Source: Nilaparvata lugens (Eukaryota; Arthropoda; Insecta; Hemiptera; Delphacidae). Taken from it: 64,000 nucleotides of DNA. The stretch covers positions 59,478,637 through 59,542,636 of the forward strand of contig NC_052504.1 in assembly GCF_014356525.2 (NCBI RefSeq). Reading direction: 5' to 3'. The notes under the pieces are model-generated. The model saw only the letters and a list, made by a program, of their open reading frames with translations, was not told the origin of the DNA and ran no database searches. Numbering within the stretch: position 1 is the stretch's first letter; each line of letters begins with the position of its first letter. A program made the position numbers and the translations under genes. Positions 17,575-63,303 of the stretch are shown in pieces.

Positions 17575-17648
17575 TATTATTATTATTATTATATTATTAT
17601 TATTATTATATTATTATTATTATTATATTATTATTATTATTATTATTA

Positions 17649-17746: not shown

Positions 17747-17747
<1 letters not shown>

Positions 17748-41756: not shown

Positions 41757-41789
41757 TATAAAACGCGGCTACATGAAACAGAACAGTTG
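41757..41789 (+). promoter_or_regulatory. Putative core promoter of peptide gene 1
   Basis: TATAAAA at 41757-41763 is followed 28 bases on by ACAGTTG, an insect initiator-like sequence whose A is at 41785. The predicted leader to the ATG at 41800 would be only about 15 nt. This is inferred from spacing alone. Confidence 0.45.
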
Positions 41790-41799
41790 AAGCTTTATC

Positions 41800-41911
41800 A
41801 TGAAACTACTTGTGCCAATTATTACTATCCTTTCATTTGTAACGTTCTCCTTGATAGGTGTGACGGACGCATACCCTACGGAAGAGAATGCCCTTCATGG
41901 ACTGGATAGAA
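41800..41911 (+). CDS. Secreted cationic peptide gene 1, exon 1 (signal peptide)
   Basis: The exon encodes 37 residues plus the first base of the next codon. It opens MKLLVPIITI, with a hydrophobic core to about residue 20 and a likely signal-peptidase site after VTDA. The acidic pro-region start YPTEENALHGLDR follows. The donor GTAAGT starts at 41912 (phase 1). The ATG lies in a good context (TATCATG). The same-length exon at 48201-48312 matches at 17 of 37 residues with no gap and has the same phase and a nearly identical donor (GTRAGTTGCA). That match is the main reason to believe both. It joins exon 2 at 43640. The family is not recognised; the peptide should enter the secretory pathway. 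Confidence 0.75.
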
Positions 41912-43054
41912 GTAAGTTGCATCGAAATCGTTGGTTCTAGTAGTTGATACATTTTTTTTTGTATCATGCTTATAACTTCGCTAGAAAAATTAGACTGTCA
42001 TTAGCCTCCAGTAGCAAGCATAGAGATCAGTTTTTCACAAAAAAATAGTTGGATGTGAATTAATATTGATACAATAGAGTGAAATTTTAGTTAAAAATTA
42101 AACAAATATTATGATAGATGATTGGTTAATACCAATTTCTCATACTCAGTACTTGAATCATCATTGTAACGCTCTTTCCTATTCCAGGAAAATGTATAAA
42201 TCGTGTTATTAGCTACAGAAAAAAATAATTGTATTATCATGCCATCATCAGATTGTGTCATCTATTAAAAAAGTGAGGGAAAAAATCAGGAGTCTTTATT
42301 TATTTGTATATACTTGATATTCTTAGTTGAAATAGGAGAATCTTTAGTGGATTATCACAAGTTATTCATGACAGGACATGACTTTTACAGGACATTTTAT
42401 TATCATGCATTTTAAGTCTATCTATTGCCAGGATGTAAATTTATCTCTCTATTATAGTGCATCTGTAAAGAATGACACAAACTGACTTATGTTGAAGATA
42501 GAAATATTGAGACTGAAAATCCTGAATGTACTGCCAGTAATATATACAAACACTAGACAAAAAAATGACGAGAATTTAAGAAGGGTAGATTGGAAGTTCT
42601 GTGAACAGTGGAGCTTGCGCAGTTATATTGTGGAGTGTAAATCACTTGTACTGCTTCAAAGTTATAAAAATCAATACAAAATATAGTAAACTACTCTCAC
42701 CTTGGATTATTACTAAGAGTATTCAAGTATTCAAGGCAGTTCTCTAAGAAGTGGGAATTACGCAGATTTCTTGTGTAGTCCCGTGGCTCAATCCATACAG
42801 TCTATCCCTAATCAGATGCTTCTAAAGTTCACTGGTGAAGAGTGTACAGAAGTATGAATCATTCATCATTTCCTTCCATACTATCCATAGAATATAAAAA
42901 CCATACACATACATCATCGCGTAATTCAAAAATGAGCATTCTTGACAAATCAATTTTATTCTAAGTTATTCGATTTAAAGATTCGATTTTGTATTTTTGA
43001 CCTAATCCTGAGGCCTTTTCAAGACCAAATTATACTTTAGCTGTTGATATTGCA

Positions 43055-43205
43055 CCCTTCAGTCTGCTAGCGCAACTGGTTGTCGGTTTGAGTCCCGCTG
43101 TAAGCATGGACATTTAATCATTCCATAAAATCAGTAACGCACTTCCCATTAGGCCTTCTCACGAACAAGCTCATGTGGGTGAACCGCAATGAAAAACAAA
43201 AAATG
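43055..43205 (+). repeat. tRNA-derived SINE-like piece in gene 1 intron
   Basis: CAGTCTGCTAGCGCAACTGG, then TTGTCGGTTTGAGTCCCGCT, resemble pol III A- and B-box regions (GGTTTGAGTCC for GGTTCRANNCC). After about 110 bp it ends in an A-rich stretch (AATGAAAAACAAAAAATG). It is too diverged for a tRNA gene and is probably an old SINE in the 1.7-kb intron of peptide gene 1. Confidence 0.4.
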
Positions 43206-43639
43206 TAAACATTTTTCGAATATTTCAAATATTTGTTCTCAAAAAATCTGATTAAATACAGTAATCACATATTTTGGACGTATCTTGAATTTTCCTCTCA
43301 TACTCGTTCTTTGTGCGTCTCCAGATGAGCAACTGATTAAACCAACCAAATTTCAACGTATTTTGACGAACAGATTTTCAATAATGTTGTTAAATTTATG
43401 AATAAGAGTCATTTCTATTTTATAGAATATATTCATAACATAAAATAATAATTTCACAATTTCATATAATATTAAACACAATGAATTATCATAAACATTA
43501 GTTGAGTGATAATTTACTCAGTTCATAATCGCTCATTTCTCTCCTCATCTGTTCATATCTGTTTATTGATTGAGTTATCTGAATGTAAATAGATTTCAAT
43601 TTTTTATTTACTGGAGTATTTATTTGTGATTTGTTGAAG

Positions 43640-43797
43640 TATCGCCTGAATCTGAACCGATGCGGCTTGCACGATCTCTCATGCATCGGTCCCGTTTCTT
43701 GTATCCAGTCCACTATCCCTGGTACAGGCCGAGAAGACCAGGACAGCCGATTTTTACACGGACGAGGCCCAAACATTGGAATAATATTGGGAGATGA
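43640..43797 (+). CDS. Secreted cationic peptide gene 1, exon 2 (Arg/Pro-rich, C-terminal Gly-Arg)
   Basis: The acceptor is TTGTTGAAG ending at 43639. The spliced codon A|TA gives Ile, followed by 51 residues and TGA at 43795-43797, for a total of 89 residues. It begins SPESEPMRLARSLMHR, shared with exon 2 of gene 2 at 13 of 20 positions. An Arg/Pro/Tyr-rich tail follows (YPWYRPRRPGQPIF), ending NNIGR. Possible processing sites follow LAR and MHR. The terminal Gly-Arg before the stop could give an amidated C-terminus. The tail resembles proline-rich antimicrobial peptides in composition, but a neuropeptide or other secreted factor is equally possible. A polyadenylation signal is at 43986-43991. 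Confidence 0.75.
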
Positions 43798-43985
43798 AGC
43801 CACCACCAATTGAAACTGAAGATGATAGCAGAATCACTGGACGTCATCTTCTGAAATCGCTTGCTGTGCTGCATTTGAATCGCATAATTGCATTGCAAGA
43901 ATGCATACTTTTACTGACTTTAGATCAAAGAGTTCACAGTTGTATATTATTATGTTCAGTTATTGTCTTCATATCAATTAGTCAC

Positions 43986-43991
43986 AATAAA
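43986..43991 (+). terminator. Putative polyadenylation signal of peptide gene 1
   Basis: AATAAA lies 189 bases past the stop codon of peptide gene 1. Another AATAAA occurs at about 44070. Which is used cannot be told from sequence. Confidence 0.4.
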
Positions 43992-44196
43992 AATAGTATG
44001 TGGAATGATTCAATGAATTTCTGAAAATCAATAATAAATTATCTGTTCATCTTGGAGTGCATTTATTCTTCAATAAACTTGATAAAGATACTCAACTGTA
44101 TGATACACACTTCGAAATTATAACAATAATAAATTGTGATGAGAGCACAGACCAAAGAACCTCCATAGAGTACAACCCAGACAGAACAACTCTAAG

Positions 44197-44330
44197 CTGT
44201 GCAACGGCTAGAAAAAAGCTTCTCACTTTTATATTTTTGAAAATTTTTCAATTTGTATACTATCAAGCTATGAAAATAGGAAGGTTTTCTCAAGAGAAAA
44301 TACACTAGCGAGCCACCCATGTCCTGTTAC
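44197..44330. repeat. Dispersed repeat piece shared with 6.6 kb
   Basis: Same family as 6620-6720: GTGCAACGGCTAGAAAAAAG, then TTTGTATACTATCAAGCTAT, then GGTTTTCTCAAGAGAAAA. Truncated; no coding content. Confidence 0.5.
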
Positions 44331-45639
44331 GATAGGCTTACTGACTGGGTAAACAATCTTTACACGACAATAAAAGAAGCCGTTAAAATATAAAAATATA
44401 CAGCTACTGTTCCATCGGAAAATCAACTATCCTTTTTTGATAAGAGAGCATCATCATCAATAATTTAATTTCCTCATCCACAGTATTCACCAGCTTCAAT
44501 AGCTAGAACGTATTTACCTATAACTAACATATATTTCTAATACAGTAGATTCACATGTTGACGGTTACTGCTTGGGAATTTTGGAGACAACGTGTCTTCC
44601 ATTACATTCCGACATTGGAAATTCTGACAATTCAAAGTGGATCTTACTTGAAATATAGAAAACGAGTTGGAATCAGCAGTTTTCCAGGTTTTACTGTTTG
44701 AATGAGAAGATTCCAAACCCATAGAAATAACCCTCAAATTTGAGATATCCCTATAATATCTGGTCAAATACATTCACCAATATTCACAAATCATATTCTA
44801 ACGTTCTATCGCGATCAGTCTCGTAGTTTTCAAATTCATTTTCCTCAAAAAATATACATTCATAAGTTATAGATTACTAAACTTGAAGCTTATTTTTCGA
44901 GAACGGGGAACAGGACTGCATAAAGTTATATTGTTGAATGAAAGGAGCACTTAATTAACAAATTAATGAATTTATTAATTCTTCTTAACTTTCACAAAAT
45001 TTGAAAAAACACACAATAATTTGTATACATCATAAAAATATACAAATAATCAAATGCTCACAAGATTTTCTTCTGATCGTGAGCCTAAAGAAATTACAAA
45101 AAGGGGGAAAACACCTAACCAATTGATTAAGAACTAGAGGTTTGAAAAAATAAAGAAACGATAAGCTAACAAAAGAGAGAAAAGAAACTACTAGTGTCAA
45201 CAGATGAACAGAAACTAATACTAATTAGGAGAAAAATACCTGAATATTTTGCCCTGCAGCATTTACCCTTCTTAAAGGATCTAATTTGTATATATGTTTT
45301 CAAACTAATACCCTAAAACATGAACCATACTGCTAAATAACTTGGTGAATCACTGTACTAATGCCTCGAGTTATGTCACCATATAAGTTTGACGTTTTAA
45401 TTCATCTAAAGATTCCTTTTTTTAATATTCATTGAACAGCATGAGAGAAAGTCCTGCGGAACGGTATTTACCAGTTTATCATATATATAGGGGAATTGGA
45501 TCCTACAAATCTGTATTATTAGTTTGAGTTAAGTTAGATGTTCTAAATGTCTGACGATTGTTGTAGGGTGTGATTCGAATGTTCAAAAGGTTCCTGTTTT
45601 TATTCATGTACAATATTATATTTTCTATTTATGACTGTT
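44331..45639. other. Non-coding stretch between peptide gene 1 and a LINE remnant
   Basis: No gene is recognised. The right part may be 3' UTR of the minus-strand LINE remnant that follows, but the boundary is not visible. Confidence 0.35.
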
Positions 45640-46345
45640 TGATTGTAGAAATATTGGCTTCCTGAAAAGAGTTTGAGTCGGGTACAGCCTTGGCCTGCCT
45701 AGTGCAACCTCAATAAAATATTTCTGTATGTTGAAAAGTTTGCTTATGTGTTGTTTTGCTGCACCATCCCACACTCTCATCCCATACTGTAGAACAGATT
45801 GAGCGTGTGCAAAATAGATTACAATAGAAAAATTTGGCAGTTTTAATTAACTTATTCTATAGAATTTGTTTGTTAAATACTTGGTCTTATTACATAACGA
45901 TTGAATTTGGCTATCCCACCTCAAATGTCGGTCAACCAATACCCCTAAATATTTAACAGATTCTGAGTCCTCTAAGGCAGGACAGTTACAACTTGTAAAA
46001 CTAAATCAATGCAGCCAGTTTTGTGAATTTTTATAGTTATTTGAGTAATTGGTTGAGTGGCAGCATTCGGAGTGAATGTCATGAAATAATACTTTTTATG
46101 ATTCAATGTTAAGGTATGGTAGTCAAGCCAAGCTTTGACAACTGGTATTTCTCTCTCAGCTGCAGCTCTAGTTTCCTCCCACTTATTACCTGAAAAGATT
46201 AGCAAAGGAGACTGCTTGGCCATTTTGAATGTTTATGCTTCGGAGATCGTTTTCATATAAATTAGAAACATGATGGAGGATAGGACGGTTCCTTGAGCTA
46301 AGCCGTAGTCAAAAGATGTTCAATACTGGTTTTATTGTCAATAGA
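45640..46345 (-). pseudogene. LINE reverse transcriptase remnant lacking the YxDD motif
   Basis: Minus-strand frames read, in order, GLAQGTVLSSIMFLIYMK (motif B region), then EREIPVVKAWLDYHTLTLNH, then SVKYLGVLVDRHLRWDSQIQ. The thumb HAQSVLQYGMRVWDGAA and ALGRPRLYPTQTLF follow. These are Jockey/CR1-type reverse transcriptase words. Between motif B and the KAWLDYH segment the catalytic FADD box is missing: the frame goes from QAVSFA-like sequence straight to NLF/LIFSGNKW with a small deletion and frameshift. It is a dead, truncated copy lying between the two peptide genes. Confidence 0.75.
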
Positions 46346-46863
46346 TAATATTTGGGTTTGTTGGCACTGGTTTAGATCCTTTACAACAGAAAATTGTAGA
46401 GCTCTCAAGAATAGAAGAATTTTATAGAGATGACTATTCGGAATACAATATATGGGGAAAATATCTACTCAGTAAACTGTGCTTGAGCTCAGCACAGCTA
46501 CGGTGGGGAGCAGACAACAGCTCAAGTACAACATTTTTGTGTAATAGTTTTATCATGAGTTGAGTGCAGAAGCAAAAAGCAAGTTAGCATAGGTATACCA
46601 CACTAATGAGTAGAAATAATTATTTTGATACTGCATAATTGGTTAGTTGAGCATTGAACATTTCAATCTTGAGCCATAACACTCGACAGGATACCAACAG
46701 ACCGTCAAATCAATATGTATATTCCAGTTCACTATCAACCTTCTATATCTTTCTATTCCACTTGTCCATATCTATCATATTAGTATATCAATAATATAAA
46801 TTCAATTAATAATATGTTCTAATCATTGCACAGATGTTTATTGGCATCGATCTTTACAGCGAC
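46346..46863. other. Non-coding stretch, nothing recognised
   Basis: AT-rich sequence between a LINE remnant and a MITE; no gene is seen. Confidence 0.4.
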
Positions 46864-47233
46864 TAGGGCTGAGCTCACATTGCATCCGATTTCGCACGAG
46901 AATTGATCGTACAGGTACGTACGGAAACGCACGAACGATCCCGATACATTGAAATTGATTGTGAGTGCTCACACTACATACGAGCTGGTCGTACGTTCAT
47001 GCACGTATAGTTCCGACATCCAAACTCGATCCCATCCTGTTGGGATATTTTTCTCACTTTGTACGATTGGGGATACATTGCTAAGCAGTAAACAAAACAT
47101 AACCTATCAAATATTAGCTTACGCATACTTCTTGACGGAGAGAAACGCGTTCAGTGTGCGCACTCATTTCGTACGATCGGTGTCGTAAGTTTATGTAAGG
47201 TAGAAATTCGTATGCATTGTGAGCTCAGCCTTA
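46864..47233. mobile_element. MITE-like element with TAGGGCTGAGC termini
   Basis: The left end reads TAGGGCTGAGCTCACATTGC and the right end, reverse-complemented, TAAGGCTGAGCTCACAATGC. The match continues to about 30 bp. The 370-bp interior is rich in CGTACG and GATCG words and has no coding frame. TAGGG-type ends suggest hAT, but the adjacent 8-mers (ACAGCGAC and TTCGGTTG) do not match, so the superfamily is unproven. Confidence 0.65.
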
Positions 47234-48120
47234 TTCGGTTGGTTCGCACCTCATCTAGATACTGCTATCTCGAGGGGAAAACCATTTTAAGTGGAAACAA
47301 TAGCCTTAAGTGAGCTCAATCTTATATGCTAGAAGAGTTGGATTATCAAAAATATACTTGAATGCAATATTGAAATCTTCGCGACAATCGAAATGGATTC
47401 TTGGAAACCACATTCGAATTTCAAATCTTGTAAACACAAGTTCTATGACTTTACACTATTCGTACTTTGTAACGTACTTATAGACGTATTAATTTATCCC
47501 TTATTCCAAGATTCAATGATCCAGTTGATTGGATTCTATAGTGGAATTACCTGAAAACTTTCTTTGTTGGTTGAATCGGAACCATTTATTTAATTATTTG
47601 AAAGGATCCTGACAGTTTGAACTTTAAAGTGAATCAAGCTGGATCATTCAGTAACTGAAAATTCGAAAGCTACAAATATGGATTACAAAACAGAATCCAA
47701 TTCTTCTTTATTCTAATATTTTAATTTTTCTTGTATTGCCGCTCATCACAAATGTTTGGAATGACTAATTAATCGAAATGCTAATGATATCATACATTTT
47801 CAATTTTGTTATTACAAAACATATTATAATATTATAATATGGAAACCTCGCTTATCTGTATGTAATCATACTGTATGGTATTCAGTATTGGAGTTACCAG
47901 AGATGAATAACTTCCATCGATCACCGCAACTTGTTAATAATCCTGAGAACTTTTATCACTTAGCTTTCCCTAAACACGAGCTATATGTAATCGAAATGTG
48001 GTTTTTGACTAAATTTTGATGAGAGAACGCTAGAATCCACAGTTACTTCCTTCCTTCAATTTCTATGTATAGAGACGAAAATATAAAAACGGAAATGACT
48101 TGAGGTCATTCCCAACTACC
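47234..48120. other. Non-coding region upstream of peptide gene 2
   Basis: No coding region is seen. Immediately upstream of the TATA-like box is GGTCATTCCC (48104-48113), a weak partial match to insect kappaB sites. It is noted without weight. Confidence 0.35.
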
Positions 48121-48127
48121 TATAAAT
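48121..48127 (+). promoter_or_regulatory. Putative TATA box of peptide gene 2
   Basis: TATAAAT lies 80 bases before the ATG at 48201, placing a start site near 48150. That would exclude the in-frame upstream ATG at 48138 from the transcript and agrees with the homology-based start. Confidence 0.4.
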
Positions 48128-48200
48128 CGAATTTCTCATGATAAGCAATCTTTCGTTGAAAAAATACTGCTATAGGAAACCAAAGTGTGATAGTTCCAAC

Positions 48201-48312
48201 ATGAAGCTGCTTGGACCAATAATTATTCTCCTATCATCTATCATCGTATTTATTATTGGTGGTAGCGACGCATTCCCTGTGGAGGTCAATGAGGTTCGAA
48301 TGCTGCATGAAA
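48201..48312 (+). CDS. Secreted cationic peptide gene 2, exon 1 (signal peptide)
   Basis: The exon has 37 codons plus one base. It opens MKLLGPIIILLSS with a hydrophobic core and a likely cleavage site after GGSDA, then FPVEVNEVRMLHE. The donor GTGAGT starts at 48313 (phase 1). Length, phase, the SDA/TDA cleavage context and the GTRAGTTGCA donor all match exon 1 of gene 1 at 41800-41911. The start at 48201 (AACATG) is chosen because it aligns with gene 1; an in-frame ATG at 48138 would add an implausible charged 21-residue extension. It joins exon 2 at 63105 across a 14.8-kb intron filled with LINEs. Confidence 0.72.
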
Positions 48313-48839
48313 GTGAGTTGCACGTTTTTTTTTCTGTATTTGAGAATTTTCATTTACGTTTAATGTTCCCTCTCTATCAAGTAATTTCGAATAACAAGTT
48401 TATGACTGTTTGAATTTTCAAACAATGATCGATTACCTGGTAACTTATAATAGCTTAGATCATATTCAGAAACTGATAAATGATTATGCGATGTAATCGG
48501 AGAGATAAACTCAATCATTACCATACCATAAAAGAGACTGCATCTCGGGGCTCATTACACTTTTTCGATCTTTCTCGTCTTCTATTATTGGAGAGTGAGT
48601 GTTAAATGAGTTTTTAAATAAAAATAAATTTGGATCAGTTTCATTTTCCGATCATCCAATTCATAACTTATCATGAATGATGATGAATTAATGCGTATTT
48701 AATTGCTTTAGGCACAGTGCACATTGTATGTCTGTTGACAACTACCGTTGTGAACCAGTTGCGTGTGCAACTGTTTTGCAACCTTGACGATGTATTTGAA
48801 CCATCATATTCCTCAAACACATTGTTATTCCCATAAGAT

Positions 48840-51800
48840 AACCCCGCAATCAGATTTTATTGGCAGCGATTGGAGTGATTTTCAAGTGTGAATCCGAATA
48901 ATAAATACTTGGTGCAAAATGGGGTCAGTGGATGTCAAATTGGATAGGATTCTAAAAGAGTTGAAAAAATTACATATACTAGAAACCAAAGTGAGGGAAA
49001 TCAGTATCCATTTCAATGAGAAAATTGAAGAAAAAATAAGATTTGAAATTCAAGAGCTGGAAAATAATTATTCAGATATGAAGAAGACCAGTGTAGAAAA
49101 TGAAAGGAAATGTAATATCTTGATCTTTGGTATTGGGGAAACAAACTTCTACGAAATAAATAAGAAAATAATACAGATATTGAAATTCTTGATCCCTGAA
49201 ATGGATGAAAACTACATCAACGATTTATGAAAAACAAATAACAAGAAAGAAAACTCACCGGTGATAGTAAAACTCAATTTATTGGCTGTTAAAAGAAGGA
49301 TCATGAAGGAGAAGTGGCATCTGCATAAAGAGCGGCGGTTTAAGAATGTGCATGTGGAAGAAGATTTTAGTAGAGAGACGCGTGAAAAAAGGAAACTTTT
49401 GCTCCCGCATTTTGATAAAGCTAAAAGAAGACGCAAACGAGTGATATTGATAAAGGACGAACTGTGTGTAAATGGTCAAAAATATGGACTCTGGACGATT
49501 TGAACAAACGTGATCATGCTTGTACAAAGCGAGCAAGAAGTGAGGAGGCAGACACAGAGAGGCAGGAAGAACTTAGGAAGAATTCCAATGAAAAGCAATC
49601 TATGAAAAAAGGAAGAAAATTGATAAAGAGAAAAAAAAGAAAAAAATTGAATAGATAATTTATTTATCAAACACAGTGATAAAAATGAAGAAGGAAGCCA
49701 GTTGAACAAACAAAGATCTATAGATCAAGAAAATGAGTCTTCAGAGAAATCAGAAGGTAGTCTGGAGAACTCTTAGAAAGTCACAAATCTTAGCAACTAC
49801 AAGGTGAGTACAGGACCGGAAAACACTTCAGAATTGGAACGCTCAATGTAAGATCAATTTTTGGAGAAGACAGGATGATAGAATTCGAAGAAGCCCTGGA
49901 GGAGCATGAATGGAAGTTCGAAGCAAATTGGCGGAAGTTCGATGAAGTTATAATAGCATAGAGGAACGGCAAAGCGGACATCTTCTGTGCCATTCTGCGG
50001 CTATAAGAGGACATCGCGGCGTGAGATTCATGATTAAAAGGGATTTGAAGAGTAACATAATGAAATTTCAAGGTTTATCAGACATATTGGCACTACTAAG
50101 AGTACACAAAGGAAATATAAAATTATTGTTAGTACAAGTCCATGCACCTACAGCAGATAGCTCAGATGAGGAAATTGATGGATTGCGTGACTCTTTGGAA
50201 AATATCATACATTCCAAAAGAGCTGGAGAGATCTTGATTATTATAGGAGACTTCAACGCAGAATTGGAACTAGAGCCCTAGGAGAAGAGAGCTTTGTTTG
50301 AGAATGTGGAATAGGAATCAGGAATAAGAGAGGAGAGAAACTTGTGGACTTCGTAATGAGAAACAACCTCAAGTTAATGAACACGTTCTTTGAAGGCCAA
50401 TTAGATGATAAATGGACATGGAAATACCAATGAAATAGATTCCATCATTATGGAAAAACATAATATGATGAAAAAATTCGAGGTTATAAAAGATTTAAAA
50501 TTTGATTCTGATCACAGATTACTGCTGGGAGGAATGTTAATTCCAAAAAGAAGATTTCCGTCCACAAGCAGGACAGTATAAAAGTTAATGAGTTGAATGA
50601 ACAAGTTTTTTTGGAGAATCTATCAGAGGAATTGAATAGGAGAAATTCCAATGTGAATAGTACTGTTGAAGAAGTGTATGAGTTGATAGAATAGTCTATC
50701 TTTAAGCATCAAATAAAATGAACAGACGTTTGCTGGTAGGGAAAGGAAGAAGTAGGAGAAGAAGAAGAAGGAGCAATAGATTATCAGAAGAGACAAGAGA
50801 AATGATTGAAGAACGTGAAAGATTGAACAGAATAAGAATGAAGTTAAAAGAAGAAAAGAAAAAGCATCAAAAATTGAGGAAAGAGGTTCAAAGGAGGATC
50901 AGAAAGGAAATGAAAGAGTATGAGGAGAAGGTAATTAATTTAATCATGCATAGTACAGAATCAACAAGGGATATTAACAAACAGCTGTGTAAAACGAAAA
51001 AAAGTGGATTCCAACTCTGGTCACAGATGTTGGAAAAGAGACAGAAAGATAAAAAATAATAAATCGAGTAACAACTTTCTATGAAAATCTGTATAGTGAT
51101 AGGATTGTAGTAGGAAAGAGCAAACAGAAAGAGCAAGGATACAAGAGAGCGGAACTGAAGCATCTGAAGAAAAACAAAGCTCCCGGCGATGATGGCATCA
51201 CAAATGAGGCGATTAAATCTGGACTGGAATTATTACTGAAACCCTTGAAATACTATTCAATAAGATTCTAAGAGAAAGGATGATACCAGCTAAGTGAAAG
51301 AGGAGTGAAGTAATTATTCTATTTAAGAAAGGATCCAGATCAGACATAAAAATTATCGGCTCATTACCCTAACGTCAACCTTGTACAAGATATTTACAAT
51401 AGTAATAAAAAACCAAATAATTAACAGGATTTATGAAAAACACTCAATAGATCAAGCCAGTTCCAGACCAGGCTTCTCAACTGTTGATGAATTACAAGCC
51501 GCCAATCAATTAATAGAGAAATGCCAGGAGTATAAAATCCCTCTATATTTAGGACTTGTTGATTTTCATATGGCTTTCGACAGTTTGAAACACGTCAAAA
51601 TGTGGGAGTCAAAAATGGAAGCTGGAGTGGAAAGAGAGTATATTGATATAATTGAGAGTTTGTATGGAAATAGTGAGGTCTACGTGGAGCTGGAGAGGAG
51701 AGGAAGAAGTATGAAAGTGGAAAAAGGCGTCAATCAAGGCTGTCCGCTATCACCAATAATCTTCAATTGTTGTTTAGAGCAAATTTTTCAGTAATTGCAT

Positions 51801-52700
51801 TGGGAGAATAGAGGAATGCTGATAAATGGAGTCCAACTGAATAGCTTGCGGTTTGCTGACGATGTGATGTTGGTGGCTGGAAGTGCTGGGGAGATGACGG
51901 AAATGTTGAATGAATTGATAGAGGTCAGTGAAAGAATGGGCCTTCAATTGAATGTGAGCAAAATGAGAGTGACGACAAATATTTCAACAAGGAGGAAGTA
52001 ATGGTGACATGTGGTAGTATAGAATATGTCGAGGAGTATGAATATTTTGGTCAGCTTCTATCTTTTGATAACCGAATTGAGAAGGAGGTAAAACAAAGGA
52101 TCAAAAAAGGATGAAGAAAATATTGGTCGTTGAGAAAAATATTCAAAGGTGACTTTCAAACAGCTTGAAATCAAACGTCTTGAGGAAATGCATATTCCTG
52201 ACAATTTTATATGGTGCACAGACCTGGTCATTAACTTCGCAGCTAGATACGAGACTCGAGACTACCCAGACGAAAATGTCAAGGAGCATACTTGGTCTAC
52301 GGTTGGATCAGAGAGTCAGAAACATCCAGATTCTGCAGCAGATGAGAGTTAAATATCTTCAAAAGGAAGCGCATCTCGTCAAATGGAAATGTGCAGGACA
52401 CGTGGCGAGGATGGCACCGGAACGCTGGGCAAAGATATGCACCGAATGGATTCCGCGCGACAGAAGAAGAACGAGAGGACGCCCAGCCATTAGATGGAGG
52501 GACCCGATCGCTCAGCGTGTAGGAGACATGTGGCCGACAACAGCCAGGGATCGGAGAAGGTGGCAAACAATCATGGACAATTTGTAAATATATTGTAAAG
52601 TTTGTTATTTCAAGATGTTTTTTTTTTTTTTTTAATAACTGCCAACCAAAAATTACCTCAACTGAGAGGCTTTTGTTCATTCCATGAATGTCAATAAAGC

Positions 52701-52740
<40 letters not shown>
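48840..52740 (+). mobile_element. RTE-like non-LTR retrotransposon, degenerate
   Basis: Plus-strand fragments follow the expected order. A coiled-coil N-terminal segment comes first (48919-49230), then APE endonuclease pieces (GTLNVRSIFGEDR at about 49840; IIIGDFNAELELE near 50270). Reverse transcriptase pieces follow from 51170, and a C-terminal domain ends near 52587. A short 3' UTR and an (ATT)n tail (52701-52740) close it. Many stops and frameshifts are present. The C-terminal GHVARM...GRP..RW.D pattern is one I associate with insect RTE-type elements; the clade is an inference. The left boundary is approximate. Confidence 0.7.
48919..52587 (+). pseudogene. RTE-like endonuclease-reverse transcriptase, multiply broken
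   Basis: Recognisable blocks are ELENNYSDMKKTSVENERKC and LIFGIGE in the N-terminal coiled-coil part, RIGTLNVRS and GDFNAELE of the endonuclease, and KNKAPGDDGITNEAI at the start of the RT. The catalytic motif A is altered as DFHMAFDSLKH. GVNQGCPLSPIIFN and LRFADDVMLVA (catalytic Asp pair intact) follow. The C-terminal WKCAGHVARM, RTRGRPAIRWRDPIAQR and DRRRWQTIMDNL close it. At least eight frame changes or stops separate these blocks, so no enzyme can be made. Highly charged frames between 49.3 and 51.1 kb (Arg/Lys/Glu-rich) are linker parts of the same degenerate protein. Confidence 0.75.
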
Positions 52741-52741
<1 letters not shown>

Positions 52742-52940
52742 TGCTACACAATACAATTGAATGAATTATTATCAATGTATCAATTAATTTTTTTTCTACT
52801 CAAGATTGACAATTATTAGGCTACTTCTTTTGATATGATTTCAATTGAAAATTATTATTTTGAGATCACTGATTAATCATATCAATGTACTATTTCTATG
52901 GGTTTTTTTAATGTAATGTAAAACTTGACTCCTCCAGTCA

Positions 52941-53362
52941 AACCTTCTTTAGAAGGTTTCGGAGAATTTATACTTTGCTGGTTTATAATTTTTGAAATTT
53001 TCCACTAAAAAGGAATTTTTCTTATCTTCTGTCATTCTTGCTTTTTTTATTATTCTTCATTTTTTTGTTATATTTTCTATAATAAGCTCCCTTCTTTTGG
53101 GGGTACCAGGACGAAGGAAAAAGGAAAGGAAAAAAATATCCATATAACCTTCTTTAGAAGGTTTTGGAGAATTTATATTTCGTCTGGTTTATAATTTTTC
53201 AAATTTTCCACTGAAAAGGAATTTTCTTATCATTTGTCATTCTTGCTTTTTCTTATTATTCTTTTTATGAGTGTATTTTTTATTTTTGTTTGTTATATTT
53301 TCTATAATAAACTCCATTCTCCTGTGAGTACCAGGACGGAGGAAAAGGAAAAGGGAAGGATT
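52941..53362. repeat. Two-copy direct repeat of about 210 bp
   Basis: Unit 1 starts at 52941 (AACCTTCTTTAGAAGGTTTC) and unit 2 at 53156 (AACCTTCTTTAGAAGGTTTT). They share the order GGAGAATTTATA, GGTTTATAATTTTT, TTCCACT, TGTCATTCTTGCTTTT, TTTTCTATAATAA and GTACCAGGACG. The block sits between the RTE-like tail and the 3' end of the first R4/Dong-like copy. Its origin (UTR of one of them or a separate element) is unclear. Confidence 0.75.
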
Positions 53363-53378
53363 ATTATTAATATTGTAA

Positions 53379-56300
53379 TTTCATTCATCACATGACAAGT
53401 GAGTGTTTATTGCAGTCGAAGTCGGCCTTTGGCAAGACTTTAGTGCACTACTAAACTGAGATGTTCAAAAATGATCATACACAATGGATGGTGTGCTGAG
53501 AACAGCTGCTTTTTCCATGGCATATTTTTCACTCTTCGATATTCCCATATGACAAAGATTTGCTGACACTTTTCTAGTTACAACTCCAACCGTGGAGATA
53601 ATGACAGGAACAATTATCATGACATTTTCTTGCATCCAGACATCCTGATCTCAGCAACCAAGGGAAGGTACTTGGAGACCTTTTCATTATAATACTGGTC
53701 CAAGTTGTGGCAGCATGGTATGCCAACATCTATTAGTGTTTTTTCCTTGGCTACCTTATCCATGAGGATGATATCTGGCCTATTATGAGCAACTGTTCTG
53801 TCTGTCAGCACCGACCGATCCCAATATAACTTATGTGTATCATTCTCCAAGACTGGGGATGGCTTGTACGAGCAGTAGGGCAGCTTCTGATTGATGATTT
53901 GGTACTTCAGAGCAAGGTCCTGATGCAAGATCCCAGCTACTGCATTGTGGCGCTTTAAAAAGTCATAGCTGCCAGTGATTGACATGCAGACATGATGTGC
54001 TGAATAGTCTCAGGTGCCAAGCCACAACGTCTGCATGAATAATCATTTATAGGCAGCTTCATTATATGCCTTTGATAATTTTTTGTTGCAATTACTTGAT
54101 CCTGTATGGCAATCAAAAATCCTTCCGTTTCAATAAACAGGTTTCTGTGCCAAAGCAATGCATTGGATGCCTCCTCATCAACTCCAGGCTGAGATAAGGC
54201 AAATGCATGCCTTCCATGAAGCTGCTTCGACTTCCACTGCTCCATAATCTCACTCTCATGCTGCTTGTTTGTTTTGAAATCCGCAGTAGGCAGCTCAGAA
54301 AGATTAAGGGGGGTGTACCCTCTATCAGCTTTCCTCACCGCTGCCTACAAGTCACCTTCCTTCTCCATGAAGAATGTCTTCAAGCTCCTGATTTGTCTCT
54401 CACAAGACAATTATATATCAATGAGCCCGCGTCTGCCTTTCTTTCTTGGCAATATGAGCCTCTCTATACACGCCTTGGGGTGATGAGCTCTGAACTCAGT
54501 GAGGGGCACTCTTGTTGATCTCATAAGATCTCCCAAATCAGTTGCAGTCCAACAAACAACACCGAATCAGTAAGTCAGCACAGGTATTGCATAAGTGTTG
54601 ATGGCCTTGAACATATTATTGCCATTTAGCTGAGTCTTCAAAAGTCTCCTCAGTCTGGTCAGGTATGTATCTTTCATTTCTCCTCGACATTATTCTGGTC
54701 TATTTGTCTAGCCTGACAAAAGCCCAAGTACTTGTAGACATCACTTGGCCCCATCGCTTCAAAAGCACTCTCCAGGTCCTCATCAATCATTTGTGCCACG
54801 ACTTGACCTCTCACAACACTGAGTGTCCTACACTTCTCCAGACCAAATGCCATGCAGATATCAGCAGGAAAGGTTCTAACCAGACCCAGCATTTCCTTCA
54901 GTTGATTTTCAGTACCTGCATAGAGCTTGATATCATCCATATACATCATGTGGGACAGTGGATGAATTTCTCTTGCTTCTCCCTTCAGCTTGAATCCATG
55001 TGTTGTGGAATTGAGTGATGCGGATAATGGGTTCAGAGCTAAACAAAATTACAATGGGCTCAAACTATCCCCTTGGAAAATACCTTGACGAACTGGTATA
55101 GTATTGGTCTGAATTGTCCAGCATTACTTCTCATTTCCAGCACTGTCCCCCACATCGACATGAGATGCTCCAGCAGCATTATGACTGAGTTGTCAATTTT
55201 GTAAATATACAGGACTTCAATCAACCAGTAGTGAGGGACACTGTCAAAGGCTTTTCGGTAGTCAATATAAGCCATATGAATATGCCTTTTCTTCTTGACA
55301 GCTTGTCCCATTGCCACTGAGTCAATGGTCAAAACCTCCTTGCAGCCCAGCCCACCTTTCATGCAGCCTCTCTGCTCATCAGCAAGCAGTCTCTCCCGAC
55401 TTAGGTATGACTGCACTTGATCTGTTATACATGCAGTGAGAACCTTGTATAGTGTACATAGGCAAGTGATTGGCCTATATTGGGAAGGGTCATGAGTTCT
55501 ATCATTTTTAGGAAGCAAGTATGTCACTCCTTTGGTGAGAAATTGTGGAACTCTGTTAGGACTCTCAAGAAATGAGGAGAAGTGACTTGCTATGAATTGA
55601 TAGAAGATTGGAAGCCTTTTCAACCGAAAATTGTGGAGCATGTCTGGTCCAGGCGCAGACCAGTTGCTGGTTTTTGAGATTGCACTTTTAACTTCAGCTG
55701 TTCCAATCAATATTCTCGGCATTTGTTGAGCTCCAGCCACTCTATCTTTTTTATTCTGAATCCATATAGCATTTTGGTTATGATACCTGCCACCCACCCA
55801 CAAACCTCTTCAGTACTCCACCTCACTCAGCTGTGGATGCTCTCCTCCATCTTCAACCTGTTGTCCACTTAGGCCCCTGTAGGAAATCTTCTCACTTTTT
55901 GAAACTTATAATTATCCTCCTTCCTTCTCTATGATATTCTGTAACGTCTCAGCCTATTAGCCTTAACAGCCAGCTCCTGAGTGAGGGTATCAAGCATCTC
56001 TTGAGGGGTTTTATTCAATGGATCCCTGTTGATTTGATGAGATGCTTCTTTTCTCAATTGTTGGTGAGCATGAACAACCTTTCTTGATCTATTATTACCT
56101 TGCGTATTGTATATGACATTGAGTAAATCGTCCTATTTTCTTCCTGAGCATATCAACCTGAGTACTCTTTGTGCACCAGATACATCAATTCCAATTGCTC
56201 TCACAATTGCCACAACTGAGCAGTACATGAGACTGAATGAAGTTCATCAAATGTCAATTTATCCAAATCAATGATTCCAGGTATCAACTCATTCATATTC

Positions 56301-56563
56301 TGGCAAGCCAATAACAGGTTTCTTGAGGGATGTACCCGTTGTATTGCTGGCCTTCTTAAATGGTCTGTTCCATCAAATTCAGCAAGTGCTCTCCCAAACT
56401 CAATTTCCTCCTTCAACTCCTGATCAGGACCCTCCACTGCACCAACCTCATTGAGTGGAACTGGGTGAGCAATTTCTGGCAAGAGGACAGGAATCTCTCC
56501 ATGATTGCTATCATTGTTCAAAATTCCCACTTCAGGAATGACCTCATTCAAGTTTATTAACTA
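53379..56563 (-). mobile_element. R4/Dong-like LINE, copy A of a tandem array
   Basis: This is a minus-strand element of about 3.2 kb. From its 5' end (56563) it encodes an N-terminal region, reverse transcriptase (YMDD), a CCHC-type finger and a restriction-like endonuclease, the single-ORF layout of R2/R4-type elements. Its ends abut ATT/TAA tracts, as expected for Dong-type elements that insert in (TAA)n. It is nearly identical to copy B, including shared disabling changes. Confidence 0.8.
53617..56551 (-). pseudogene. Copy A RT/restriction-like endonuclease polyprotein, broken
   Basis: Blocks in order on the minus strand are as follows. The N-terminus is MNEVIPEVGILNND (from 56551). The RT has SAPGPDMLHNF, PKNDRTHDPSQYRPITCLC and YIDYRKAFDSVPH (motif A), then YMDDIKLYAG (motif C, about 54945). 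The zinc finger is CRRCGLAPETIQHIMSAC (C-x2-C-x8-H-x4-C). The endonuclease has RPDIILMDKV and TLIDVGIPCCHNLDQYYNEK. Breaks include a one-base deletion after SNAGQ (about 55118, not in B), a stop after motif B and frameshifts around 53960 and 53630, the last ones shared with B. An internal deletion near 56150 relative to copy C is also shared with B. Confidence 0.8.
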
Positions 56564-56593
56564 TATTATTATTATTATTCTTATTTTGTATCA

Positions 56594-59500
56594 TTTCATT
56601 CATCACATGACAAGTGAGTGTTATTGCAGTCGAAGTCGGCCTTTGGCAAGACTTTAGTGCACTACTAAACTGAGATGTTCAAAAATGATCATACACAATG
56701 GATGGTGTGCTGAGAACAGCTGCTTTTTCCATGGCATATTTTTCACTCTTCGATATTCCCATATGACAAAGATTTGCTGACACTTTTCTAGTTACAACTC
56801 CAACCGTGGAGATAATGACAGGAACAATTATCATGACATTTTCTTGCATCCAGACATCCTGATCTCAGCAACCAAGGGAAGGTACTTGGAGACCTTTTCA
56901 TTATAATACTGGTCCAAGTTGTGGCAGCATGGTATGCCAACATCTATTAGTGTTTTTTCCTTGGCTACCTCATCCATGAGGATGATATCTGGCCTATTAT
57001 GAGCAACTGTTCTGTCTGTCAGCACCGACCGATCCCAATATAACTTATGTGTATCATTCTCCAAGACTGGGGATGGCTTGTACGAGCAGTAGGGCAGCTT
57101 CTGATTGATGATTTGGTACTTCAGAGCAAGGTCCTGATGCAAGATCCCAGCTACTGCATTGTGGCGCTTTAAAAAGTCATAGCTGCCAGTGATTGACATG
57201 CAGACATGATGTGCTGAATAGTCTCAGGTGCCAAGCCACAACGTCTGCATGAATAATCATTTATAGGCAGCTTCATTATATGCCTTTGATAATTTTTTGT
57301 TGCAATTACTTGATCCTGTATGGCAATCAAAAATCCTTCCGTTTCAATAAACAGGTTTCTGTGCCAAAGCAATGCATTGGATGCCTCCTCATCAACTCCA
57401 GGCTGAGATAAGGCAAATGCATGCCTTCCATGAAGCTGCTTCGACTTCCACTGCTCCATAATCTCACTCTCATGCTGCTTGTTTGTTTTGAAATCCGCAG
57501 TAGGCAGCTCAGAAAGATTAAGGGGGGTGTACCCTCTATCAGCTTTCCTCACCGCTGCCTACAAGTCACCTTCCTTCTCCATGAAGAATGTCTTCAAGCT
57601 CCTGATTTGTCTCTCACAAGACAATTATATATCAATGAGCCCGCGTCTGCCTTTCTTTCTTGGCAATATGAGCCTCTCTATACACGCCTTGGGGTGATGA
57701 GCTCTGAACTCAGTGAGGGGCACTCTTGTTGATCTCATAAGATCTCCCAAATCAGTTGCAGTCCAACAAACAACACCGAATCAGTAAGTCAGCACAGGTA
57801 TTGCATAAGTGTTGATGGCCTTGAACATATTATTGCCATTTAGCTGAGTCTTCAAAAGTCTCCTCAGTCTGGTCAGGTATGTATCTTTCATTTTCTCCTC
57901 GACATTATTCTGGTCTATTTGTCTAGCCTGACAAAAGCCCAAGTACTTGTAGACATCACTTGGCCCCATCGCTTCAAAAGCACTCTCCAGGTCCTCATCA
58001 ATCATTTGTGCCACGACTTGACCTCTCACAACACTGAGTGTCCTACACTTCTCCAGACCAAATGCCATGCAGATATCAGCAGGAAAGGTTCTAACCAGAC
58101 CCAGCATTTCCTTCAGTTGATTTTCAGTACCTGCATAGAGCTTGATATCATCCATATACATCATGTGGGACAGTGGATGAATTTCTCTTGCTTCTCCCTT
58201 CAGCTTGAATCCATGTGTTGTGGAATTGAGTGATGCGGATAATGGGTTCAGAGCTAAACAAAATTACAATGGGCTCAAACTATCCCCTTGGAAAATACCT
58301 TGACGAACTGGTATAGTATTGGTCTGAATTTGTCCAGCATTACTTCTCATTTCCAGCACTGTCCCCCACATCGACATGAGATGCTCCAGCAGCATTATGA
58401 CTGAGTTGTCAATTTTGTAAATATACAGGACTTCAATCAACCAGTAGTGAGGGACACTGTCAAAGGCTTTTCGGTAGTCAATATAAGCCATATGAATATG
58501 CCTTTTCTTCTTGACAGCTTGTCCCATTGCCACTGAGTCAATGGTCAAAACCTCCTTGCAGCCCAGCCCACCTTTCATGCAGCCTCTCTGCTCATCAGCA
58601 AGCAGTCTCTCCCGACTTAGGTATGACTGCACTTGATCTGTTATACATGCAGTGAGAACCTTGTATAGTGTACATAGGCAAGTGATTGGCCTATATTGGG
58701 AAGGGTCATGAGTTCTATCATTTTTAGGAAGCAAGTATGTCACTCCTTTGGTGAGAAATTGTGGAACTCTGTTAGGACTCTCAAGAAATGAGGAGAAGTG
58801 ACTTGCTATGAATTGATAGAAGATTGGAAGCCTTTTCAACCGAAAATTGTGGAGCATGTCTGGTCCAGGCGCAGACCAGTTGCTGGTTTTTGAGATTGCA
58901 CTTTTAACTTCAGCTGTTCCAATCAATATTCTCGGCATTTGTTGAGCTCCAGCCACTCTATCTTTTTTATTCTGAATCCATATAGCATTTTGGTTATGAT
59001 ACCTGCCACCCACCCACAAACCTCTTCAGTACTCCACCTCACTCAGCTGTGGATGCTCTCCTCCATCTTCAACCTGTTGTCCACTTAGGCCCCTGTAGGA
59101 AATCTTCTCACTTTTTTGAAACTTATAATTATCCTCCTTCCTTCTCTATGATATTCTGTAACGTCTCAGCCTATTAGCCTTAACAGCCAGCTCCTGAGTG
59201 AGGGTATCAAGCATCTCTTGAGGGGTTTTATTCAATGGATCCCTGTTGATTTGATGAGATGCTTCTTTTCTCAATTGTTGGTGAGCATGAACAACCTTTC
59301 TTGATCTATTATTACCTTGCGTATTGTATATGACATTGAGTAAATCGTCCTATTTTCTTCCTGAGCATATCAACCTGAGTACTCTTTGTGCACCAGATAC
59401 ATCAATTCCAATTGCTCTCACAATTGCCACAACTGAGCAGTACATGAGACTGAATGAAGTTCATCAAATGTCAATTTATCCAAATCAATGATTCCAGGTA

Positions 59501-59780
59501 TCAACTCATTCATATTCTGGCAAGCCAATAACAGGTTTCTTGAGGGATGTACCCGTGTATTGCTGGCCTTCTTAAATGGTCTGTTCCATCAAATTCAGCA
59601 AGTGCTCTCCCAAACTCAATTTCCTCCTTCAACTCCTGATCAGGACCCTCCACTGCACCAACCTCATTGAGTGGAACTGGGTGAGCAATTTCTGGCAAGA
59701 GGACAGGAATCTCTCCATGATTGCTATCATTGTTCAAAATTCCCACTTCAGGAATGACCTCATTCAAGTTTATTAACTAT
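56594..59780 (-). mobile_element. R4/Dong-like LINE, copy B of a tandem array
   Basis: Head-to-tail with A at a spacing of 3,214 bp and separated from it by ACTATATTATTATTATTATT-type sequence. I noticed only a handful of single-base differences from copy A along its whole length. An identical ATT/TTATTTTGTATCA junction also separates B from C. Confidence 0.8.
56831..59767 (-). pseudogene. Copy B RT/restriction-like endonuclease polyprotein, broken
   Basis: Same protein blocks as copy A. The RT frame (59019-58264) runs further than in A, to GIFQGDSLSPL, where a TAA stop replaces the Trp codon present in copy C (SPLWFCLALNP). The YMDD segment frame (58164-57781) extends through KMKDTYLTRLRRLLKTQLNG. 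The CCHC finger (57552-57169) and endonuclease (57199-56831) are in overlapping different frames because of a one-base deletion shared with A. Confidence 0.8.
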
Positions 59781-59809
59781 ATTATTATTATTATTCTTAT
59801 TTTGTATCA

Positions 59810-62800
59810 TTTCATTCATCACATGACAAGTGAGTGTTTATTGCAGTCAAAGTCGGCCTTTGGCAAGACTTTGGTGCATTACTTCTAAACTGAAATGTTC
59901 AAAAATGATCTCACAATGGATGGTGTGCTGAGAACAGCTGCTTTTTCCATGGCATATTTTGCACTTTTCGATATTCCCATCTGACAAAGATTTGCTGACA
60001 CTTTTCTAGTTACAACTCCAACCGTGGAGATAATGACAGGAACAATTGTGACCTTCTCTTGCATCCAGACATCCTTGATCTCAGCAACCAAGGGAAGGTA
60101 CTTGGAGACCTTTTCATTATAATACTGGTTCAAGTTGTGGCAGCATGGTATGCCAACATATATTAGTGTTGTTTCCTTGGCTACCTTATCCATGAGGATG
60201 ATTTCTGGCCTATTATGAGCAACTGTTCTGTCTGTCAGCACCGACCGATCCCAATATAACTTATGTGTCTCATTCTCCAAGACTGGGGATGGCTTGTACA
60301 AGTAGTAGGGCAGCTTCTGATTGATTATTTGGCACTTCAGAGCAAGGTCCTGATTCAAGATCCCAGCTACTGCATTGTGGCGCTTTAAATAGTCAGTAGC
60401 TGCCGGTGATTGACATGCAGACATGATGTGCTGAATAGTCTCAGATGCCAAGCCACAACGTCTGCATGAATAATCATTTATAAGCAGCTTTATTATATGA
60501 CTTTGATAATTCTTTGTTGCGATTACTTGATCCTGTATTGCCACCAAGAATCCTTCCGTTTCAATAAACAGGTCCCTGTGCCAAAGCCATGCATTGGAAG
60601 CCTCCTCATCAACTCCAGGCTGAGATAAGGCAAATGCATGTCTTCCATGAAGCTGCTTCGACTTCCATTGCTCCAGAATCTCACTCTCATGCTGTCTGTT
60701 GGTTTTAAAGTCCGCAGTAGGCAGCTCGGAAAGATTAAGTGGAGTGTACCCTTCATCAGCTTTTCTCACCACTGCATACAAGCCACCCTCCCTCTCCATG
60801 AAGTAAGTCTTCAAGCTCGTGATTTGTCACTCACAAGCCCATTTTATATCAATGAGCCCGCGCCCGCCTTTCTTTCTTGGCAATATGAGCCTCTCCATAC
60901 AGGCCTTAGGGTGATGAGCTCTGGACTTGGTGAGGAGCACTCTTGTTAATCTCATAAGATCTCCCAAATCAGTTGCAGTCCAACAAACAACACCGAATCA
61001 GTAAGTCAGCACAGGTATTGCATAAGTGTTGATGGCCTTGAACATATTATTGCCATTTAGCTGAGTCTTCAAAAGTCTCCTCAGTCTGGTAAGGTATGCC
61101 CATCTTTCATTTTCTGCTTGACATTCTTCTGGTCTATTTGTCTAGCCTGGCAAAAGCCCAAGTACTTGTAGACATCACTTGGCCCCATCGCTGCAAAAGC
61201 ACTCTCCAGGTCCTCATCAATCATTTGTGCCACGACTTGACCTCTCACAACACTGAGTGTCCTACACTTCTCCAGACCAAATGCCATGCAGATATCAGCA
61301 GAAAAGGTTCTTACCAGACCCAGCATTTCCTTCAGTTGATTTTCAGTACCCGCATAGAGCTTGATATCATCCATATACATCATGTGGGACAGTGGATGAA
61401 TTTCTCTTGCTTCTCCCTTCAGCTCCCTTCAGTGTTGTGGAATTGAGTAATGCAGACAATGGGTTCAGAGCTAAACAAAACCACAATGGGCTCAAACTAT
61501 CCCCTTGGAAAATACCTTGACAGACTGGTATAGTATTGGTCTGAATTTGTCCAGCATTACTGCTCATTTTCAGCACAGTCCCCCACATCGACATGAGATG
61601 CTTCAGCAGCATTATGACTGAGTTGTCAATTTTGTGAATATACAGGACTTCAATCAACCAGGAGTGAGGGACACTGTCAAAGGCTTTTCGGTAGTCAATA
61701 TAAGCCATATGAATATGCCTTTTCTTTTTGACAGCTTGTCCCATTGCCACTGAGTCAATGGTCAAAACCTCCTTGCTGCCCAGCCCACCTTTCATACAGC
61801 CCTTCTGCTTATCAGCCTGCAGTCTCTCCCGACTCAAGTATGACTGCACTTGATCTGTTATACATGCAGTGAGAACCTTGTATAGTGTACATAGGCAAGT
61901 GATTGGCCTATATTGGGAAGGGTCATGAGTTCTATCATTTTTAGGAAGCAAGTATGTCACTCCTTTGGTGAGAAATTGTGGAACTCTGTTGGGACTCTCA
62001 AGAAATGAGGAAAAGTGACTTGCTATGAATTGATGGAAGATTGGAAGCCTTTTCAACCAAAAATTGTGGAGCTTGTCTGGTCCAGGCGCAGACCAGTTGC
62101 TGGTTTTCGAGATTGCGTTTTTAACTTCAGCTGTTCCAATCAATATTCTTGGCATTTGTTGAGCTCCAGCCACTCTATCTTTCTCATTCTGAATCCATAA
62201 AGCATTTTGATTATGATCCCTGCCACCCGCCCACAAACCTCTCCAGTACTTCTCAACCTCACTCAGCTGTGGATGCTCTCCTCCATCTTCAACCTGTTCT
62301 CCACTTGGGCCCCTGTAAAAATCTTCTCACTTTTTTGAAACTTATAATTATCCTCCTCCCTTCTCAATGATATTCTGTAACGTCTCAGCCTATCAGCCTT
62401 AACAGCCAGCTTCTGAGTGAGGGTATCTAGCATCTCTTGAGGGGTTCTATTCAATGGATCCCTGTTGGTGTGATGTGATGCTTCTCTTCTCAATTGTTGG
62501 TAAGCATGAACAACCTTTCTTGATCTATTACCTTGCATGTATTGAGTAAGTCGTCCTAGTTTCTTCCTGAGCATATCAACTTGTCTACAGAGTCTCTCTT
62601 CCCAAGGTGGTATCCTTTTCTTCCTGAGTACTCTTTGTGCACCAGATACATCAATCCCAATTGCTCTCACAATTGCCACAATTGAGCAGTACATGACTGA
62701 ATGAAGTTCATCAAATGTCAATTTATCCAAATCAATGATTCGAGGTATCAACTCATTCATATTCTGGCAAGCCAATAACAGGTTTCTTGAGGGATGTACC

Positions 62801-62961
62801 CGAGGTATTGCTGGCCTACTTAAATGGTCTGTTCCATCAAACTCAGCAAGTGCTCTCCTAAACTCAATTTCCTCCTTCAACTCCTGATCAGGACCCTCCA
62901 CTGCACCAACCTCATTGAGTGGAACTGGGTGAGCAATTTCTGGCAAGAGGACAGGAATCTC

Positions 62962-62962
<1 letters not shown>
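59810..62962 (-). mobile_element. R4/Dong-like LINE, copy C of a tandem array, 5'-truncated at (ATT)n
   Basis: Third head-to-tail copy, more diverged from A and B than they are from each other. It is the most complete over the finger and endonuclease region. Its 5' end stops at 62962 directly against an (ATT)n tract, about 80 bp short of the 5' end of A and B. It keeps about 45 bp (near 62580-62630) that A and B have lost. Confidence 0.8.
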
Positions 62963-63030
<68 letters not shown>

Positions 63031-63036
63031 CATCAT
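59885..63036 (-). pseudogene. Copy C RT/restriction-like endonuclease polyprotein, broken
   Basis: The N-terminal frame (ending 62263) contains LPEIAHPVPLNEVGAVEGPD and RQVDMLRKKLGRLTQYMQG. A one-base deletion near 62318 ends it. The correct frame upstream of the RT reads HPQLSEVEKYWRGLWAGGRD. RT motif A is YIDYRKAFDSVPHSW, followed by SPLWFCLALNP. A small duplication of CTCCCTTCAG near 61420 shifts the frame just before YMDD (61378-61367). The C-terminal frame 60814-59885 is intact over the finger (CRRCGLASETIQHIMSAC) and the endonuclease (RPEIILMDKV, then VGIPCCHNLNQYYNEK). The nominal start inside the ATT tract (Met-Met-Ile repeats) is not a real N-terminus. Confidence 0.8.
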
Positions 63037-63045
63037 TATTATTAT
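62963..63045. repeat. (ATT)n microsatellite beside gene 2 exon 2
   Basis: About 80 bp of TTA repeats with a CATCATT interruption lie between the 5' end of LINE copy C and the polypyrimidine-rich acceptor region of peptide gene 2. On the minus strand it is (TAA)n, the known target of Dong-type elements. Confidence 0.9.
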
Positions 63046-63104
63046 CTACTGCCAGTAAATTTTATTGTTTTATTGTTTTATTCTTTTGAATTGAATAGTT
63101 GAAG

Positions 63105-63262
63105 CATCACCTGGATCTGAATTGGCGAGGATTGCCCGGTCTCTCATGAATCGAAGGCGATACTTGAATCGGCTCCATAGACCCTGCAGTAGACGCAGAA
63201 GACTTCGATTGAGAAAGCCACAACCTCAAACCGTACCTCGTCATTTGTTCTGGGGTCGATGA
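63105..63262 (+). CDS. Secreted cationic peptide gene 2, exon 2 (Arg-rich, C-terminal Gly-Arg)
   Basis: A T-rich tract (TTTTATTGTTTTATTCTTTT) and the acceptor GTTGAAG end at 63104. The spliced codon A|CA gives Thr, then 51 residues and TGA at 63260-63262, again 89 residues in all. It starts SPGSELARIARSLMNRRR, close to gene 1. The rest is strongly basic (SRRRRLRLRKPQP) with one Cys and ends RHLFWGR. Only 7 of the last 31 positions match gene 1, but the final Gly-Arg is kept. Possible processing sites are IAR, NRRR and SRRRR. A polyadenylation signal follows at 63298. An alternative acceptor at AATAG (63098) would add two residues. Confidence 0.72.
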
Positions 63263-63297
63263 AGAACACTTCCTGAAAACTTATCTGAAATTTTAAG

Positions 63298-63303
63298 AAT
63301 AAA
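63298..63303 (+). terminator. Putative polyadenylation signal of peptide gene 2
   Basis: AATAAA lies 36 bases past the stop codon of peptide gene 2, a typical position for a short 3' UTR. Confidence 0.5.

Follow-up and report, generated by a model that had tools for sequence, protein, structure and literature searches.

The stretch of the Nilaparvata lugens genome (1.085 Gb) analyzed here, hereafter the window, comprises 64,000 nucleotides (nt) at 59.48–59.54 Mb of sequence C1 and carries on its plus strand two colinear genes, A (41800–43797) and B (48201–63262), each consisting of two exons and encoding a product of 89 residues that has the appearance of a precursor of a secreted cationic peptide. 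Both are very probably genuine genes and are organized as follows:

41800..41911, plus strand: exon 1 of gene A, 112 nt, 37 codons plus 1 nt; predicted signal peptide and first part of an acidic spacer
41912..43639, plus strand: intron of gene A, 1,728 nt, phase 1, GT...AG, donor GTAAGTTGCA, acceptor GTTGAAG
43640..43797, plus strand: exon 2 of gene A, 158 nt; remainder of the spacer, RLAR site, cationic peptide, Gly-Arg and stop
48201..48312, plus strand: exon 1 of gene B, 112 nt; predicted signal peptide and first part of an acidic spacer
48313..63104, plus strand: intron of gene B, 14,792 nt, phase 1, repeat-filled, GT...AG, donor GTGAGTTGCA, acceptor GTTGAAG
63105..63262, plus strand: exon 2 of gene B, 158 nt; remainder of the spacer, RIAR site, arginine-rich peptide, Gly-Arg and stop

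The initial annotation proved right in all elements of this architecture, i.e., the coordinates, the exons of 112 and 158 nt, the phase-1 introns, the donors, the acceptors and the 89-residue products, and the donors of both genes fit the pattern GTRAGTTGCA.

A and B are paralogs. The two products share 37 of their 89 residues and, when aligned without gaps, are identical at 17 of the 37 residues of exon 1, at 13 of 20 in the segment 39–58 and at 5 of 12 in the segment 59–70, whereas over residues 71–89 the final Gly-Arg constitutes the sole match; allowing gaps (95 columns) adds a few matches in this tail. The identities claimed previously for exon 1 and for the beginning of exon 2 were therefore reproduced, and the accompanying claim that the products align without gaps holds to about residue 70 but not beyond it. 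In a tblastn comparison of A with the window, exon 1 and exon 2 of B were detected with E values of 1.2e-5 (33.9 bits) and 4.8e-6 (35.0 bits), respectively, as compared with best scores of 21.9 bits for A exon 1 and 25.8 bits for A exon 2 in 100 dinucleotide-shuffled windows, and the reversed window, used as a control with six query pieces, yielded a best E of only 0.056. On the strength of these scores and controls, a chance pair of open reading frames (ORFs) was rejected. Compared as nucleotide sequences, exon 1 and the initial 60 nt of exon 2 outscore all of the 300 shuffles to which they were compared, the tail of exon 2 is weakly similar (P 0.043) and the upstream 120 nt are borderline (P 0.09), while neither the intron edges tested (P 0.55 and 0.80) nor the 3′ flank (P 0.66) rise above the shuffles; a similarity that starts and stops at the proposed splice sites is the trace to be expected of a real gene pair.

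The initial annotation had also postulated that selection acts on a real protein and had suggested that the ratio of nonsynonymous (dN) to synonymous (dS) changes per site be determined between the copies. The Nei-Gojobori estimates (dN 0.57 and dS 1.04 for all codons, dN 0.38 and dS 0.75 for residues 1–56) indicate that nonsynonymous changes are indeed the less frequent per site, the synonymous excess being modest (Fisher's test on rounded counts, P 0.023 for all codons and 0.042 for residues 1–56). A better argument for selection than dN/dS is offered by the fact that both reading frames are intact at a dS of about 1, the frame having been retained over a divergence that has left the introns unalignable. 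Thus, exon-confined similarity, intact frames at high divergence and a dN lower than dS all favor the postulate, and these comparisons support the view that A and B represent a genuine gene pair under selection whose products are secreted cationic peptides.

The difference in length between the introns of A (1.7 kb) and B (14.8 kb) is largely explained by repeats and is, for this reason, no objection to the pairing of the exons. Most of the second half of the B intron is taken up by a single array:

53360..62962, no strand assigned: three tandem repeat copies in the intron of gene B, unit about 3.2 kb, 93.6–97.1% identity between copies

The minus-strand ORFs of this array read like a retroelement reverse transcriptase, which we presume them to be, and a tblastn search between the paired exons found no competing copy of either exon 1 or exon 2.

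The precursors begin with MKLLxPII, followed by a hydrophobic stretch ending in DA ahead of YP or FP. The spacer of 25 residues has a net charge of −2 in A and −1 in B, and an RXXR motif occupies residues 46–49 in both products (RLAR in A, RIAR in B). The net charge of residues 50–87, calculated as K+R−D−E, amounts to +8 in A and +13 in B, and that of residues 57–87 to +6 and +10, respectively. The segment 50–87 opens in both copies with a conserved SLMxRxR block and contains no cysteine in A and one in B. A dS of 0.75–1.0 would lead one to expect orthologs of both genes in related planthoppers, the leader and the SLMxRxR block being conserved in them. Both products terminate in Gly-Arg, which is a classical amidation signal, and the residues preceding it are wholly different in the two copies (NNI and LFW). 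A second common RXXR (RPRR and RRRR, residues 67–70) is located exactly where A and B cease to match, a coincidence that makes additional cutting at this position possible. It may be mentioned that this placement gives a hint of two separate peptides, one corresponding to the conserved and the other to the variable part.

In the mechanism that we propose, A and B would have arisen from an old tandem duplication and are presumably transcribed in N. lugens, and each of them would yield a secreted prepropeptide. The signal peptide would be cleaved after Ala24 and a furin-like protease would subsequently cut after the RXXR at 46–49 to release peptide 50–89, shorter peptides being produced should the basic sites at 54–56 or 67–70 also be cut; the C-terminal Arg would then be trimmed and the Gly consumed for amidation. 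Before this release, the acidic spacer may balance the charge of the cationic peptide. The mature peptides would most likely be antimicrobial or symbiont-restraining and might act on bacterial membranes or inside bacteria.

A and B look like ordinary insect defense-type peptides excised from a longer precursor. The succession of conserved leader, acidic spacer, furin-type site and divergent cationic peptide is a common plan of antimicrobial prepropeptides, and a conserved front followed by a diverged tail is also encountered in toxin-like prepropeptides; in A and B the first 70 residues are conserved and the tail has diverged. That the two genes encode prepropeptides of antimicrobial-type effectors, endowed with signal peptide, acidic spacer, RXXR and cationic amidated peptide, is in our opinion a proposition with an even chance of being correct. 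Among the three roles initially contemplated, namely immune effector, neuropeptide and salivary factor, that of an immune-type effector would seem to fit best, and is preferred over that of a neuropeptide because a conserved leader is combined with a variable cationic tail. The original interpretation is thus upheld in part: the selected gene pair for secreted cationic peptides is supported and, among the proposed roles, that of immune effector fits best, while the neuropeptide has turned out to be a poor fit and both lineage restriction and the absence of a known family are no more than possible.

Some further indication, of borderline significance, comes from the comparison of the A tail with heliocin, an antimicrobial peptide of the lebocin group, which yields an ungapped stretch of 16 residues with eight identities, a result equaled in none of 1000 shuffles when heliocin is considered singly and corresponding, at gap costs 11/1, to a value of 0.02 for the whole set of 22 peptides tested. 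Several results weigh against an antimicrobial function. With gap costs 6/1 the value for the A tail and heliocin over the 22 peptides becomes 0.166, which is not significant, and the B tail resembles none of these 22 peptides beyond chance (0.255 and 0.611). Furthermore, dN/dS is below 1 wherever it can be computed, dS being saturated in residues 71–89, so that no positive selection is seen on the tail. Finally, no match to any of the three strict κB-type patterns, or to the variants tried, was found within 1 kb upstream of A or B, so that immune induction receives no support from this side; in the same 1-kb regions the loose pattern GGRNNNNNCC has two matches for B and none for A.

As to the class to which such effectors might belong, the published criteria for proline-rich antimicrobial peptides (AMPs) are a proline content of at least 25%, a net charge of at least +1, a PRP motif that is indicative but not essential, and an antimicrobial action having DnaK or the 70S ribosome as target (PMC7736402). 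The proline content is 19.4% (residues 57–87) or 15.8% (residues 50–87) in A and 12.9% or 10.5% in B; both products lie below 25% and neither contains a PRP motif, and their net charge does correspond to that of the class; on the ground of the proline content, a true proline-rich AMP is rejected. Three hemipteran representatives of this class, pyrrhocoricin, metalnikowin and Oncopeltus peptide 4, are short, linear, cationic and Arg/Pro-containing like A and B, but have 25–35% proline as opposed to 15.8–19.4% in A and 10.5–12.9% in B. With the heliocin/lebocin group of Lepidoptera, A shares an RF-x-x-P start and a P-x-x-x-P-R-R-P spacing, yet A is an 89-residue two-exon hemipteran gene; lebocin precursors are larger, and lepidopteran. 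A peptide of the defensin type is likewise rejected, the paired cysteines being missing from the cationic part of both A and B. The defensins A and B of N. lugens are also encoded by a small secreted two-exon gene pair, located on one scaffold, but have 104 residues and a mutual identity of 86.5% as compared with 37 of 89 for the genes described here (PMC3616906). The effectors named in this 2013 survey of N. lugens immune genes include the two defensins, reeler and lysozymes (PMC3616906).

Sequence databases were also searched for relatives. Pfam returned no match for A and, for B, a single one that fell short of the cut-off of 26 bits (12 bits, E 0.15), NCBIfam no match for either, and Rfam no match in the window at gathering scores. 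In the PDB, full-length A found a ribosomal protein (E 1.1) and SAKe6DR (E 0.0018, although none of its individual stretches passed), both of which were judged spurious, and residues 57–87 of A found no match; a large protein set gave two candidates for A and one for B, none of them credible. Short lineage-restricted peptides are known to evade homology searches.

When the whole genome was searched at the protein level, A gave four matches, of which two were the exons of A itself, one was B exon 1 (E 1.9) and one was weak and unrelated (E 9.0), and B gave eight, consisting of its own two exons, both exons of A, one truncated copy and three weak unrelated ones (E 1.45–6.6). That the A query did not list B exon 2 means that this search misses distant copies. 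By tblastn, no further copy was found in a stretch of 264,000 bases (5,000 of them N) made up of the window and the 200 kb on its left, or in the 10 kb to the right. The only additional copy listed genome-wide is a fragment at C1:57379628-57379723, which contains only the 3′ part of exon 2 of B and is a 93% match to positions 63173–63682 of the window, where this part of the exon is followed by its 3′ flank. The fragment lies within a copy of a repeat that begins in the window near 63840 (63840–63998), so that a mobile element appears to have captured the 3′ end of B; more copies of this repeat are present near C1:57358500-57361500.

If the two genes encode effectors, the question arises as to whether these have already been described. 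The lugensins (Zhou et al. 2019, Insect Biochem Mol Biol 113:103215) are presented as novel AMPs of N. lugens said to disrupt bacterial membranes (PMC10780390), and they appear in a list of hemipteran AMPs (PMC11084805). The species matches, and lugensins have in common with A and B the class of small antimicrobial-type peptides. A search of 5.39 million papers for six sequence words taken from the two products gave no match, a negative of little weight because sequences usually sit in figures or supplements. That A and/or B are lugensins is possible, though less likely than not; it would concern only the novelty of the genes, the mechanism being the same as that of the effectors proposed above. 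A and B may thus be known already under another name and, since they could be lugensins, a new family cannot be claimed. On the other hand, we tentatively entertain, as a possible but doubtful extension of the antimicrobial-effector reading, the existence of a planthopper-specific family of amidated Arg/Pro-rich effectors, distinct from the lugensins; in this family the leader and the RXXR-SLM block would be conserved and would carry a rapidly changing cationic tail, A being heliocin-like and having arisen independently in a symbiont-dependent, sap-feeding hemipteran.

An unlikely alternative is that A and B are secreted cationic peptides with a role other than antimicrobial, for instance in seminal fluid or saliva. 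N. lugens possesses a lineage-restricted accessory-gland peptide, maccessin, that is cut from a small precursor (PMC12077777), and the missing strict κB-type site within 1 kb upstream of the genes would suit such a role; yet the combination of acidic spacer, RXXR, cationic tail and amidation signal is no less typical of AMPs. Maccessin resembles A and B in having a small secreted precursor with basic cleavage sites, but differs in its six cysteines, its KR sites and its lack of an amidation signal; it is reported to be restricted to close relatives, an alignment with N. muiri being mentioned, and the fragment ATLGEYTY is reported from N. lugens accessory glands (PMC12077777). As the identity of A and B it is rejected, being a different peptide encoded at another locus. 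A degenerate pattern for ATLGEYTY gave one exact match in the genome, as against none for the reversed control pattern. This match, at C2:63693312-63693335 on the minus strand, belongs to an exon of a maccessin-like gene, whose reading frame has a signal-like start, contains a KR site as well as several cysteines and thereby agrees with the description of maccessin.

A third and improbable alternative regards A and B as precursors of neuropeptides or peptide hormones that act via a receptor. Basic cleavage sites and a C-terminal Gly-Arg are present in both products, but the residues ahead of the amidation signal differ, whereas neuropeptide paralogs usually retain that motif, and a net charge of +8 or +13 is unusual for a neuropeptide; since A and B have not kept a common C-terminal part, this reading is a poor fit. 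That A and B are chance open frames or decayed, non-coding copies, a reading favored by the lack of credible matches in databases, families or structures, by the 14.8-kb repeat-filled intron of B and by the modest evidence of selection, is very improbable given that frame, phase and splice contexts have been kept, that exon 1 and early exon 2 beat every shuffle and that both frames are intact.

Sequence comparison supports the reading of A and B as a small family of secreted peptides and does not by itself establish their novelty and function. If validated, the pair would add effectors possibly relevant to the symbionts, pathogens and virus carriage of a major rice pest. Gene B is also a case of a gene kept open despite an intron grown to nearly 15 kb with repeats. 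Should A and B be lugensins, the value of the finding falls to the chromosomal placement of known genes.

Candidate promoter and polyadenylation-type motifs, all of them consensus matches only, accompany the two genes:

41757..41763, plus strand: TATA-like motif of gene A, 43 nt upstream of the ATG
48121..48127, plus strand: TATA-like motif of gene B, 80 nt upstream of the ATG, another being present at −119
43986..43991, plus strand: AATAAA downstream of gene A; the 400 nt beyond the stop contain four A[AT]TAAA matches, this being the first
63298..63303, plus strand: AATAAA downstream of gene B

Elsewhere in the window, a sequence is duplicated in tandem between about 24190 and 28220, the two copies being offset by about 2,177 bases: one and the same 18-base array occurs at 24595 and again at 26772, and ORFs that share their start occur at 25715 and 27891. 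A run of plus-strand ORFs, partly broken, extends over 12774–17495 and reads like the two ORFs of a non-LTR (long terminal repeat) retroelement, which we take it to be; a (TTA)n array lies on either side of this run, at 12643–12743 and 17570–17753.

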